From positions 4,477,001-4,541,000 of the forward strand of contig NZ_CP120683.1 in assembly GCF_030506325.1 (NCBI RefSeq): 64,000 nt of DNA. The letters run 5' to 3'. A model generated the notes under the pieces. The model was not told the DNA's origin, did not search any database, and saw nothing but the letters and a program-made list of their open reading frames with translations. Position 1 is the stretch's first letter, and the number at the start of each line of letters is the position of its first letter. Positions 26,234 to 29,616 of the stretch are shown in pieces. Source of the stretch: Tunicatimonas pelagia. GTDB lineage: Bacteria; Bacteroidota; Bacteroidia; Cytophagales; Cyclobacteriaceae. A program made the translations under genes and the position numbers.

Positions 26234-27673
26234 TCAATTTGCAATTGTTTCTGCTAACTCCAGAGCCTTCCGCAATGCTGCCAGCTTATTATTCACTTCT
26301 TGTAATTCCTTTTTAGCTTCTGACTTGGCAACAACTCCGGCACCGGCTTGGTAGTACAGGGTGTTGTCCTGACTCAGAAACGAGCGAATCATAATGGCGT
26401 GGTTAAAATCGCCGTTGAACCCGAGAAAGCCGAGAGCACCACCGTAGTAGCCCCGTTGTGTAGTTTCGTAACGATGAATCAACTGCATGGCCATATGCTT
26501 GGGTGCTCCCGAAAGCGTTCCGGCAGGAAAAGTATCGGCCACTACCCGAATGGGTGACGTCTCTTTCGAGAGCGTTCCGGTTACTTTAGAAACCAAGTGA
26601 ATAACGTGGGAGAAGTACTGGATTTCTTTGAAAGTCTCTACCGTTACATCGTCGCCGTTGCGGCTTAAGTCGTTGCGGGCTAAATCTACCAGCATTACGT
26701 GTTCAGAATTCTCTTTGGGGTCGTCCATCAGTTTACGTGCTAGTTCGGCATCGGCTTCATCGCTACCCGTACGGCGAAAAGTACCGGCAATAGGGTAAAT
26801 ACTGGCAGTATCGCCTTTAATCACAATCTGGGCTTCAGGCGAAGAACCAAATAGCTTGTAGTTACCGTAGTCGAAGTAGAATAGATAAGGGGAAGGGTTG
26901 ATGGAGCGTAAGGTGCGATATACATTAAACTCATCGCCCTTAAAAGCTGTCTGGAACCGTCGCGACAGCACAATCTGAAATACATCGCCCCGAAAGCAAT
27001 GTTCCTGCCCTTTACGAATAATCTCCAGAAACTCGTCATCAGTATAATTACTTCCCTCGGCTTCGCTACGCTTGAAGTGGTAGCTGGGAATGTTTTTATT
27101 GTTGATAAGTGCCAGCAAGTTGGTTAGGCCACTATCTTCGCCATCATTGCCTTCGTACTGATGCTCAAAAGCGTATAGTTCGTTACGAAAGTGGTCTACT
27201 ACAACCACGTAGCGATACACTGCGTAGTATATTTCGGGAACGTTGTAATGCGTTTTTTCATCTGAAGAAAGATCAATCTCTTCAAAATATTGTACCGCAT
27301 CGTAGGCCATGTAGCCAAACAAGCCGCTGGTAGTGAAGCGATAATTGCTTTCCTCACTTTCAAACCGTTGAGAAAATTGCGCTAGCATCTCGACCACTGC
27401 CTGAGGGTTTTCTACTGACTGCGAGTCTTTAGTACCGTCGGGAAAAACTTGGGTAACTGTTCTCTGGTTCACCGAGAAAGATGCAATCGGCTGGCAGCAA
27501 ATAAACGAGAAGCTGTTATCGCTACTGTGGTAGTCGGAGCTTTCCAACAAAATAGGATTTTCGTAGCGATCCCTAATCTTCAAGTAGATGCTAACAGGAG
27601 TTACAGTGTCTGCTAATAATCGCTCGGATCGGGTAACGAGCCGAAAGGTATTGGGGGGTGATTGTGTATTCAT
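26234..27673 (-). CDS. trpE: Anthranilate synthase component I
   Basis: TrpE converts chorismate to anthranilate with ammonia from TrpG and is normally inhibited by tryptophan. The 479-residue protein shows the chorismate-binding signatures: IVLSRRFQTAFKGDEFNVYR, FGSSPEAQIVIKGD, YPIAGTFRRTGSDEADAE, MLVDLARNDLSRNGDDVTVE, HLVSKVTGTL, FPAGTLSGAPKHMAMQLI and AGAGVVAKSEAKKE. LLESSDYHSSDNSFSFICC corresponds to the N-terminal tryptophan-inhibition LLES motif. It is the first structural gene of the operon, preceded by a Trp-rich leader peptide and an attenuator. The final codons overlap a heptamer tract. Confidence 0.97.
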   Translation of the reverse strand: MNTQSPPNTFRLVTRSERLLADTVTPVSIYLKIRDRYENPILLESSDYHSSDNSFSFICCQPIASFSVNQRTVTQVFPDGTKDSQSVENPQAVVEMLAQFSQRFESEESNYRFTTSGLFGYMAYDAVQYFEEIDLSSDEKTHYNVPEIYYAVYRYVVVVDHFRNELYAFEHQYEGNDGEDSGLTNLLALINNKNIPSYHFKRSEAEGSNYTDDEFLEIIRKGQEHCFRGDVFQIVLSRRFQTAFKGDEFNVYRTLRSINPSPYLFYFDYGNYKLFGSSPEAQIVIKGDTASIYPIAGTFRRTGSDEADAELARKLMDDPKENSEHVMLVDLARNDLSRNGDDVTVETFKEIQYFSHVIHLVSKVTGTLSKETSPIRVVADTFPAGTLSGAPKHMAMQLIHRYETTQRGYYGGALGFLGFNGDFNHAIMIRSFLSQDNTLYYQAGAGVVAKSEAKKELQEVNNKLAALRKALELAETIAN

Positions 27674-27697
27674 GTTGGTAAATGGTTGAGTTTTTGT

Positions 27698-27728
27698 AAA
27701 AAAAAAGCCTACTGCGTAGACAGTAGGC
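27698..27728 (-). terminator. trp attenuator terminator hairpin
   Basis: In transcript sense the sequence is GCCTACTG, loop TCTACG, CAGTAGGC, then nine T residues: a perfect 8-bp stem with a U tail. It lies 25 bases before the trpE start and 37 bases after the leader peptide stop. It would terminate transcription when tryptophan is plentiful. Confidence 0.93.
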
Positions 27729-27774
27729 GATTATTAAGTTATTTGTACAATAAGTTACCCCTAGTTCACGCAAA
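27707..27774 (-). promoter_or_regulatory. Antiterminator region of the trp leader
   Basis: The leader segment TTGCGTGAACTAGG (within 27758-27774, overlapping the last leader codons) can pair with CCTACTGTCTACGCA, the 5' half and loop of the terminator. The pairing has about 13 base pairs, one mismatch and a two-base bulge. Upstream, CGCAAGAA can pair instead with TTCTTTGCG, forming a pause hairpin around TATC. These are the mutually exclusive 1:2, 2:3 and 3:4 structures expected of ribosome-mediated attenuation. Confidence 0.8.
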
Positions 27775-27828
27775 GAAGATATTCTTGCGCCACCACCATG
27801 CAGTAAACATATTGATTTGTGTATTCAT
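27766..27828 (-). CDS. trpL: trp operon leader peptide with Trp-Trp-Trp
   Basis: A 20-residue peptide, MNTQINMFTAWWWRKNIFFA, with three consecutive Trp codons (27790-27798). It precedes a terminator hairpin and trpE, the classic layout of an attenuation leader. When charged Trp-tRNA is scarce the ribosome would stall at the TGG run, covering the pause-hairpin segment and freeing the downstream strand to form the antiterminator. A second in-frame ATG at codon 7 is an alternative start. The first 12 bases are identical to the start of trpE (ATGAATACACAA). Confidence 0.9.
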   Translation of the reverse strand: MNTQINMFTAWWWRKNIFFA

Positions 27829-27836
27829 CTTAACGA

Positions 27837-27867
27837 CAAATATAAAAGTCCGTGTGGATAATCCCAA
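27837..27867 (-). promoter_or_regulatory. Promoter of the trpE operon
   Basis: Minus-strand TTG (27865-27867), 20 bases, then TATATTTG (27837-27844), matching the Bacteroidota -33/-7 consensus. The predicted start lies a few bases before the leader peptide ATG, so the leader mRNA would be almost leaderless. A 13-base palindrome, GCTGAA-A-TTCAGC (27895-27907), lies just upstream in the divergent region and could be an operator. Confidence 0.65.
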
Positions 27868-27934
27868 TAGAAGCGTAAATTTATCCGATAATCTGCTGAA
27901 ATTCAGCAATCAACCACGAAGTTTAATATAGTAT

Positions 27935-28519
27935 ATGGAAACCCTCGCCGAACAATTTCAGCAAGTTAGCAAACAGAAGAGCCGGGTGCAACGAGAGAAC
28001 AAAGCACTTAAACAAGGACTAATTTTTAGCGGAGGGCTTATTTTGTTGTTGGTAGGTTACCTGATATTCATTGAGTTTTTCACTCCATTATTTGGTCGCT
28101 GGCCGCAAGTGCAAAAATCGTTGCAACGGGCCGAAGCGCACAATCACTACCTAAAGGAACAAGTTGATAGTTTATACCGGGTAAACGATTTGTTGTTAGA
28201 ACTTTCCCCCTACTACACCGGAGTATTCTACGAAGTGCAAATTGGTGCCTTTGAGAATTTTAATCTGGCTGACTACCAGGAAGATTTGGTAAAGATGAAC
28301 ATTGATTACAACGGTCCGCTGGATCAGTATACCTTAGGAAAATTTAGGGACTTGCCCAAAGCCTTGGCCTTTCAGAAAGATGTGCAGCAAATGGGCATTC
28401 AAGATGCCTTTGTAGTGGCGAAGGTAGATGGAGAACGAGTTTCTGTAAATGAAGCTTTACGGGAAGCAGAACGGTTACAAGAAAGCCGGGAAGAAAGTTT
28501 GGAAAAAAACCCAACTTGA
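27935..28519 (+). CDS. Membrane-anchored protein with a SPOR-like domain
   Basis: A 194-residue protein with a short cytoplasmic N-terminus (coiled-coil, rich in Gln and Lys), one transmembrane helix (LIFSGGLILLLVGYLIFIEF, about 29-48), a coiled-coil linker and a C-terminal domain. The last part contains FYEVQIGAFENFNLADY and YTLGKFRDLPKALAFQKDVQ, the paired beta-alpha pattern of SPOR domains that bind denuded peptidoglycan at division sites. It is divergent from the trp leader. The precise role is unknown; a cell-wall or division function is a reasonable guess. Confidence 0.7.
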   Translation: METLAEQFQQVSKQKSRVQRENKALKQGLIFSGGLILLLVGYLIFIEFFTPLFGRWPQVQKSLQRAEAHNHYLKEQVDSLYRVNDLLLELSPYYTGVFYEVQIGAFENFNLADYQEDLVKMNIDYNGPLDQYTLGKFRDLPKALAFQKDVQQMGIQDAFVVAKVDGERVSVNEALREAERLQESREESLEKNPT

Positions 28520-28980
28520 GTCTGTCGGTTTTACTAAATCCCAGAATAAACAGGATTTGAGCTGTTACGCCATCGCAACCCTCCACTGTTAACATCCTGC
28601 AAAAGCAGAATGCCCTAACAAAAGTTAGGGTGAGGCCCGGTTTTGGTGGCAAACTTGGCTCGGTAATGGTCTAAGTGTTGGATTTAGAAAACGAGATTAG
28701 ACTCAAGCGGGTAACCTTCAATATGTAAAAGAACTACCGCTTCATGCGGCATTTACTTATAAATTTCTATTTACGAATATACTATAAACTCAAGAAAGGC
28801 TAAAATGATTTCATGCGGAAAAACTTCATTTTTAGTACATGCACTACTAAATCAGTAGATACTGTTTTGTAGACAGGAAAGAAAAAACCAGATAATTCGT
28901 ACAGAGTTGAAAAGTAATAAGCCCTAAGAGTTCAGAGTTTTGGGTTCACAGTTCTGAATTACGATATGTTTACTAATTTG
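28520..28980. other. Non-coding gap upstream of the AACCCAG array
   Basis: No gene is convincing here. It contains a perfect hairpin CCCTAAC-AAAA-GTTAGGG (28613-28630) without a U tail, a short inverted repeat TTTAGTA/TACTAAA (28831-28851), and four degenerate heptamers GTTCAGA, GTTTTGG, GTTCACA, GTTCTGA (28930-28957). The last are related to the reverse complement of the array that follows and could fold back on it. Confidence 0.55.
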
Positions 28981-29127
28981 AACCCAGAACCCAGAACCCA
29001 GAACCCAGAACCCAGAACCCAGAACCCAGAACCCAGAACCCAGAACCCAGAACCCAGAACCCAGAACCCAGAACCCAGAACCCAGAACCCAGAACCCAGA
29101 ACCCAGAACCCAGAACCCAGAACCCAG
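28981..29127. repeat. Perfect 21-copy AACCCAG tandem array
   Basis: Exactly 21 uninterrupted copies of the heptamer AACCCAG (147 bases) end six bases before the kdsC start codon. Because 21 x 7 is divisible by three and the unit contains no stop, an ATG at 28966 reads through in frame with kdsC, giving an artificial NPEPRTQ repeat. The array occupies the position where a 5' untranslated region is expected. Confidence 0.98.
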
Positions 29128-29133
29128 ACTTTC

Positions 29134-29616
29134 ATGAATATTGATCCCGATAAAATTCGCTTACTTGTTTTAGATGTAGACGGAACGCTTACCGATGGTG
29201 GAATTTACGTTACCGAGAAAGGAGATTCCTTCAAAAAATATAATGCCAAAGATGGTATGGCTATTTCCAAACTTATCCGGCAGGGATTACCCGTGGCGTT
29301 TATCAGCGCGAGCTTTACTGTTAACACGGTAGAGTATCGAGCTAAGATGCTGGGCGTAGAATATTGCTACGTGGGTAAAGATCCAAAAACGCAGATACTG
29401 GAAGGCTGGATGGAGACGTTAGGCATTCAATACTCAGAAATTCTGTTTATGGGCGATGATATTAATGACCGTGAAGTAATGCAGAAAGTAGGCATCTCGG
29501 CTTGCCCAGCGGATGCTTCTCCAGCAATACGAGAGATTGCTGACATCGTTTTGGAACGGCGCGGGGGAGATGCCTGTTTCCGAGAATTAGTCGACCGTTA
29601 CTTTCCAATTAGCTAA
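29134..29616 (+). CDS. kdsC: 3-deoxy-D-manno-octulosonate 8-phosphate phosphatase
   Basis: KdsC removes the phosphate from Kdo-8-phosphate on the route to lipopolysaccharide inner core. The 160-residue protein is a capless HAD phosphatase of normal length: motif I LLVLDVDGTLTDG with nucleophile Asp14 and acid Asp16, then YNAKDGMAISKLI, motif II FISAS, Lys in VGKDPKTQILE, and motif III FMGDDINDREVM. A longer frame from 28966 only translates the upstream heptamer array, so ATG 29134 is preferred. The next gene starts three bases after its stop, suggesting an operon. Confidence 0.93.
   Translation: MNIDPDKIRLLVLDVDGTLTDGGIYVTEKGDSFKKYNAKDGMAISKLIRQGLPVAFISASFTVNTVEYRAKMLGVEYCYVGKDPKTQILEGWMETLGIQYSEILFMGDDINDREVMQKVGISACPADASPAIREIADIVLERRGGDACFRELVDRYFPIS

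Follow-up and report, generated by a model that had tools for sequence, protein, structure and literature searches.

The gene trpE of Tunicatimonas pelagia (Bacteroidota) lies behind a short leader in which an open reading frame (ORF) with a run of tryptophan codons is followed by an intrinsic terminator. This arrangement raises the question whether a translating ribosome couples expression of trpE to the supply of tryptophan. The ribosome-stalling tryptophan switch is a textbook device of E. coli. The window analysed here is a 64,000-nucleotide stretch of contig NZ_CP120683.1 (assembly GCF_030506325.1, positions 4,477,001 to 4,541,000), and all coordinates below refer to it. A sequence-only reading of this window had claimed a promoter, a 20-residue peptide with three successive Trp residues, a pause hairpin (strands 1:2), an antiterminator (2:3) and a terminator (3:4), and every one of these parts is present at the place claimed. 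Together they very probably make up a transcription attenuator of the classical, ribosome-mediated type that acts on trpE and the genes downstream. The leader is ∼135 nt long and is situated between an ORF on the opposite strand (27935-28519, plus strand) and trpE, with the following parts:

27844-27698, minus strand: trp leader parts overall (-7 box, ORF, 1:2, 2:3 and terminator), ending 24 nt before trpE
27844-27837, minus strand: -7 promoter box TATATTTG of the Bacteroidota type (consensus TAnnTTTG), read from the sequence
27828-27766, minus strand: leader peptide ORF MNTQINMFTAWWWRKNIFFA, 20 codons with UGA stop, read from the sequence
27798-27790, minus strand: Trp codons UGG-UGG-UGG, read from the sequence
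27789-27769, minus strand: 1:2 hairpin CGCAAGAA-UAUC-UUCUUUGCG, arms 27789-27782 and 27777-27769, directly after the Trp codons; the weakest-supported part
27773-27757, minus strand: segment 2 (5' strand of the antiterminator), which holds the leader stop codon and pairs with 27728-27711
27728-27711, minus strand: segment 3 (5' arm and loop of the terminator with the top of its 3' arm), which pairs with segment 2
27728-27698, minus strand: intrinsic terminator, a 9-pair stem (27728-27707) followed by nine U residues (27706-27698)

The claimed promoter is accounted for by the -7 box, and the Trp-Trp-Trp peptide by the ORF at 27828-27766. Segment 2 starts 16 nt past the Trp codons. Three of the parts depart somewhat from their first description: the pause hairpin exists but is interrupted by a one-base bulge and, taken alone, is weak (-5.7 kcal/mol), the antiterminator pairing exists but as an interrupted helix of 7+2+4 pairs, and the terminator, described as a perfect 8-bp stem, has the nine U residues but carries an extra G-U pair beside its 8 Watson-Crick pairs.

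The genes behind the leader are as follows:

27673-26234, minus strand: trpE, anthranilate synthase component I (TIGR00564, E 2.4e-126; 422 bits, below the curated cut-off of 517.7)
26237-25521, minus strand: methyltransferase-like gene (PF08241, 31.5 bits, over the cut-off), overlapping the end of trpE by 4 nt
25071-24499, minus strand: trpG, anthranilate synthase component II (TIGR00566, over the cut-off)
24401-24018, minus strand: gene for a 23S rRNA-intervening-sequence (23S-IVP) four-helix protein (PF05635), between trpG and trpD
23986-22985, minus strand: trpD, anthranilate phosphoribosyltransferase (TIGR01245, over the cut-off)

The gene aat follows trpD on the same strand, and we take trpE, the methyltransferase-like gene, trpG, the 23S-IVP gene, trpD and aat to form one transcript. 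To our knowledge, the methyltransferase-like and 23S-IVP genes are not usual members of a trp operon. On the other side of the leader, the ORF at 27935-28519 has no NCBIfam or Pfam match. Farther upstream, at 28980-29128, there is a perfect tandem array of 21.3 copies of the 7-base unit GAACCCA; it sits at the start of a listed ORF (28966-29616), and the true start of that gene probably lies behind the array.

How the parts would work together follows the classical scheme. RNA polymerase would start ∼4 nt before the leader AUG, and a ribosome would load on the nascent 5' end and translate the 20-codon ORF. When charged tRNA-Trp is plentiful, the ribosome would reach the UGA codon inside segment 2 and cover this segment, so that the 3:4 terminator forms and transcription stops before trpE. 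When tRNA-Trp is uncharged, the ribosome would stall on the three UGG codons and mask strand 1 of the 1:2 hairpin, leaving segment 2 free to pair with the emerging 5' arm and loop of the terminator; with 2:3 formed, the polymerase would read on into trpE. If the leader is not translated at all, 1:2 would form, and then the terminator. The parts themselves, their conservation and their covariation stand in the sequences; what we infer from these is where transcription starts, that the leader is translated, that the ribosome stalls and transcription terminates, that the operon is co-transcribed and that it responds to tryptophan.

Folding of the window RNA in the corresponding states is consistent with this scheme. 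With a ribosome placed on the Trp codons and the 3' arm of the terminator still incomplete, 2:3 forms (-8.3, then -14.3 kcal/mol as the polymerase advances), with the ribosome at the stop codon the 3:4 terminator forms, and the untranslated RNA folds into a structure that contains 1:2 and the terminator. The classical model would thus account for each folding state. Like other members of this class, the window has tandem Trp codons, a terminator between the ORF and trpE, and a 2:3 helix that excludes the terminator. A 1:2 hairpin, which would exclude 2:3, forms in the window fold, with weak own-versus-cross support.

Compared to shuffled sequences, the terminator and the antiterminator stand out. 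The terminator hairpin has an energy of -14.9 kcal/mol against -3.9 ± 2.0 in shuffles (0 of 200 equal to it), and it accounts for most of the stability of the whole leader (z -3.37, 0 of 200 shuffles as good). The 2:3 duplex reaches -14.8 kcal/mol against -7.2 ± 2.1 when shuffled, with 0 of 100 as good. The 1:2 duplex of the window is not significant by itself (z -1.0 against shuffles), nor are the folds of 27755-27832 (z -1.16) and 27723-27832 (z -0.93), which leave out the terminator. In 12 kb, terminator-like sites (13 against 10.7 in shuffles) and sigma-70-like sites (19 against 21.7) are as classes not above chance, and the terminator of the trpE leader has the most G-C pairs among the listed terminator-like sites of these 12 kb. 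No Rfam family reaches its gathering score in the window, and the six sub-gathering matches found in 27600-28000 at E values up to 10 include no trp leader.

The static energies of the window favour the terminator (3:4, -13.5 kcal/mol) over the antiterminator (2:3, -11.5 kcal/mol), and at equilibrium the terminator wins even with the upstream RNA masked (27692-27779, -17.8 kcal/mol). The switch must therefore be kinetic, since the terminator prevails at equilibrium in the stalled state too. A rival reading is a fixed terminator that happens to stand behind a chance Trp-rich ORF and that ends an upstream transcript or damps trpE constantly, without sensing. In its favour, once the 3' arm is there, every state of the window examined has the terminator in its minimum-energy fold. 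Against an upstream transcript, the nearest long upstream ORF (27935-28519) lies on the other strand, so that no evident same-strand gene needs ending there. Conservation of the Trp codons, of their spacing and of the antiterminator, described in the following, also argues against a fixed terminator, which we regard as very improbable.

Conservation in relatives had been set beforehand as a test of the attenuator reading, and the Trp codons, the antiterminator and the terminator proved to be kept within the order and beyond. A search for trpE (E ≤ 1e-60) gave matches in 56 of 60 genomes drawn from the family, 71 of 88 from the order, 21 of 60 from the class and 52 of 61 from the phylum; these draws overlap, and those of order, class and phylum took genomes at least 90% complete. 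In all, 163 places upstream of trpE were examined: 59 from the family, 60 from the order, 26 from the class and 18 from other classes, the last being the 18 best-scoring of 40 genomes (22 left out). Upstream DNA of G029 and G046 (family) and of G093, G117, G123 and G135 (order) was left out. The rule asked for an ORF of 8-50 codons that starts with AUG, contains neighbouring Trp codons and is followed by a terminator; because it took the longest possible ORF, the N end of some leader peptides probably extends too far. Such an arrangement precedes trpE at 128 of the 163 places, namely 54/59 in the same family, 41/60 in the same order, 19/26 in the same class and 14/18 in other classes. Seven of the 35 misses (G014, G032, G042, G049, G156, G167 and G230) have a W-x-W or longer W-rich ORF with a terminator, and a looser reading that adds the first four lifts the family to 58/59. 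The rule finds no match at 19 of the 60 same-order places, several of which are without any terminator.

The pattern is specific for Trp. Where at least 150 nt of upstream DNA was available (161 places), the rule is matched by Trp at 128 and by the next residue, Asn, at 34. The reverse strand gives 0 of 161 Trp matches, though 43 of 161 have a terminator-like site. Five rounds of dinucleotide shuffling also give no Trp match, but this zero says little about Trp because the shuffles lose nearly all terminators (6.4 against 146 of 161), and the comparison between residues is the better control. In a further count by name, 72 of 80 loci (the best 80 of 584 confirmed stretches) carry the attenuator when WW or W-x-W is accepted; they include Algoriphagus, Cyclobacterium, Hymenobacter, Spirosoma, Dyadobacter, Arenibacter, Maribacter and others, and some are the same genomes as in the count of 163 places.

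The nearest relative among the 80 loci is an uncultured Flammeovirgaceae MAG (L212; Cytophagales, Bacteroidota) with 91% TrpE identity. Its leader peptide MNTQINIFAAWWWRRNNFFA has no indels relative to that of the window, and it keeps the -7 box, the reading frame, WWW and the terminator; judged by eye, its 2:3 helix seems more regular than that of the window. Between genera, the leader peptides vary freely in length and sequence beyond the Trp run. The residue after the run is His in 58 of the 128 leaders, which may reflect pairing of CAC/CAU in 1:2. In L064 (G049) and L242 (uncultured Persicobacter sp.), which are possibly one genome, a W-Y-W-H leader (MKTTTGHIHAWYWHLYITKMNSPVMP) replaces WWW, and it may read more than one amino acid. 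In four Flavobacteriaceae (L274, L281, L282 and L284), no terminator turned up in the scan within 400 nt upstream of trpE, and their relatives L248, L256 and L278 do have a trp attenuator; the four are possible recent losses.

Free divergence of the peptides bears on a further role of the leader. Besides attenuation, and compatible with it, the leader peptide or the terminated RNA might act in trans; such a role is reported for peTrpL of Sinorhizobium meliloti, which belongs to another phylum (PMC7298713). Peptides that differ freely between genera outside the Trp run speak against such a role and are expected if only the codons matter; a trans function is improbable in our view.

The antiterminator pairing was compared across the 128 leaders. 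The mean energy of the 2:3 duplex is -17.6 kcal/mol when both segments come from the same leader and -11.6 kcal/mol when they are combined across species, and its mean z is -3.2 against shuffled versions of segment 2; in at least six leaders, over 20 of 100 shuffles pair as well as the real segment. A leader's own 2:3 pair beats the median foreign pair in 53/54 leaders of the family, 38/41 of the order, 19/19 of the class and 12/14 of other classes. Neither comparison is wholly free of relatedness. In 59 of the 128 leaders, the 2:3 duplex equals or exceeds the terminator in strength, and in static folding to the terminator end the terminator forms in most leaders. The distance from the end of the Trp run to segment 2 is similar throughout, with medians of 18 nt in the family, 17 in the order, 16 in the class and 11.5 in other classes. 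The own and cross-species energies support an antiterminator whose pairing is kept while its sequence changes.

Single pairs were examined on a MAFFT alignment of the 54 same-family leaders. In the terminator, 97% of the cells are paired, 9 of 10 pairs show changes on both sides, and 96 cells covary against 32.9 in the control. The 2:3 helix, read from one member, has 67.8% of its cells paired. Changes affect both sides in 35 cells, where shuffles give 18.1; sliding the helix by 1-3 columns gives 13-30 such cells. The count of 2:3 pairs altered on both sides does not exceed that of shuffles, 75 of 500 of which match it, and in some of the family the alignment seems to be out of register. One form common among family members pairs GUGAACAGC with GCUGUUCAC; its segment 2 extends over the upper part of the 5' arm and the loop into the opening bases of the 3' arm. 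Of all parts of the attenuator, the 1:2 hairpin has the least support: its mean energy is -9.2 kcal/mol for own and -7.4 kcal/mol for cross-species pairs, z is -2 or lower in 22 of the 128 leaders, and the mean z is about 0 in other classes.

The sensor is not identified by covariation alone, and the same RNA alternatives could be read by a protein or by direct binding of tryptophan to RNA, as in a TRAP-like system or a riboswitch. What relatives keep, however, is UGG codons in frame with a preceding AUG. There would be no need of a reading frame for a binding protein, and L212 keeps the frame while bases change; the lack of an Rfam family at gathering score in the window also counts against a sensor of this kind, which is scarcely credible here. 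The conserved Trp codons, antiterminator and terminator support ribosome-mediated attenuation, as originally proposed for the locus.

The -7 promoter box is placed at -12 to -5 relative to the start site (PMC9723704). By this measure, the start site of the trpE leader would be at ∼27832 with a 5' UTR of 3-4 nt. A TAnnTTTG box with an in-frame AUG behind it is found in 73 of the 128 leaders, and mononucleotide shuffles give 9.15 regions with a box; the other 55 leaders are without such a box. The 120 nt before the leader AUGs hold 81 boxes, and 54 of these end fewer than 20 nt from the AUG; in the equivalent bins ahead of the trpE match start there are nine boxes in total. If the box is at -12 to -5, a hand count gives a 5' UTR of less than 10 nt in 44 of the 73 boxed leaders, with some bias toward short distances from picking the box nearest the Trp codons. 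For comparison, about 3.7% of the 5' UTRs of Bacteroides thetaiotaomicron are shorter than 10 nt (PMC7366714), and 5.5% of Flavobacterium psychrophilum mRNAs are leaderless (PMC9723704). Since the boxes, where found, are mostly less than 20 nt from the leader AUG, a near-leaderless start looks typical of these trp leaders, and it may serve quick loading of the ribosome. The near-leaderless 5' end that had been called unusual is predicted from the promoter box, and it recurs in the leaders of relatives.

The window resembles E. coli trpL (L292) in having a short ORF with tandem Trp codons, an antiterminator and an intrinsic terminator directly before trpE. The distance from the Trp codons to segment 2, taken by the same measure, is 14 nt in trpL and 16 nt in the window, and in both the terminator is stronger than the antiterminator in static calculation (-13.4 against -10.9 in trpL). 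The trpL duplex (-10.9) hardly exceeds its shuffles (-9.0 ± 2.7), so that a genuine attenuator need not stand out in this test. In contrast to trpL, the window has three Trp codons instead of two, a segment 2 that reaches the terminator loop and upper stem, a TAnnTTTG box with a predicted 5' UTR of ∼4 nt, and no match to the Rfam trp leader.

Within the phylum, leader-peptide attenuation has already been inferred before amino-acid biosynthesis operons of F. psychrophilum, where structured elements upstream of pheA and hisG are among those conserved in Flavobacteriaceae (PMC9723704). The window shares phylum and type of mechanism with these leaders; trp is absent from the main text of that paper. 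In B. thetaiotaomicron, short ORFs in long 5' UTRs have been likened to the leader peptides of attenuation (PMC7366714), again the same phylum and the same suggested mechanism; the example given there is a hypothetical protein gene, and the main text has no trp case. Leader-peptide attenuators are also known in Actinobacteria and Firmicutes (PMC1262725, PMC2965389), like the window outside Proteobacteria but in other phyla; in 2010, the authors of the Firmicutes case stated that, ermC aside, none had been shown before it outside Proteobacteria and Actinobacteria (PMC2965389). A trp attenuator in Bacteroidota, its breadth and its covariation were not found in the main texts of the open papers searched; Lopatovskaya 2010 and Merino 2008 may bear on priority. 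By its mechanism the trpE leader belongs with the classical trp attenuators, a device that has hardly been described in this phylum. The earlier remark that few experimental examples exist in Bacteroidota fits the literature searched, but the element itself is common in the phylum.

Trp is probably not the only amino acid whose genes are attenuated in this way. Of 29 ilvD places found, 25 loci were fetched and 19 scanned, and 9 of the 19 have a run of at least three Ile/Leu/Val codons with a terminator behind. This rule is weak, since hydrophobic peptides often contain such runs. These nine include ilvD of T. pelagia itself (L189, G000:C1:607151-608764, minus strand), which is preceded by the leader ORF MIFSIVIIVVVLVIITPTTG and a strong terminator; together they are suggestive of branched-chain attenuation before ilvD. 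Before hisG, 3 of 19 loci (L168, L177 and L185, all relatives) have a run of at least three and up to six His residues with a terminator, three others (L170, L175 and L179) have His runs without a terminator, and the scan showed no His-run leader before hisG of T. pelagia (L182). As candidates for a second trp attenuator elsewhere in the T. pelagia genome, the pattern TGGTGG-N-T8 gives four other sites, against two for a reversed control pattern.

Whether most Bacteroidota share one ancient trp attenuator, with a near-leaderless ORF behind TAnnTTTG, a Trp triplet ∼17 nt ahead of segment 2 and an antiterminator invading the terminator by way of its loop, is in our judgement evenly balanced. If so, ribosome and polymerase would be closely coupled early in transcription throughout Bacteroidota, and the ilv and his leaders would be built alike. 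Bacteroidota are described as lacking Shine-Dalgarno sequences (PMC9723704), and a widely conserved trp attenuator would be a simple, testable readout of whether ribosomes trail RNA polymerase closely in this phylum. The mechanism is a textbook one, yet the worked examples that we found come from other phyla. The trp leader is also a candidate native tryptophan sensor, and it shows that a comparison of pairings across species can reveal short leader ORFs of the attenuator kind.
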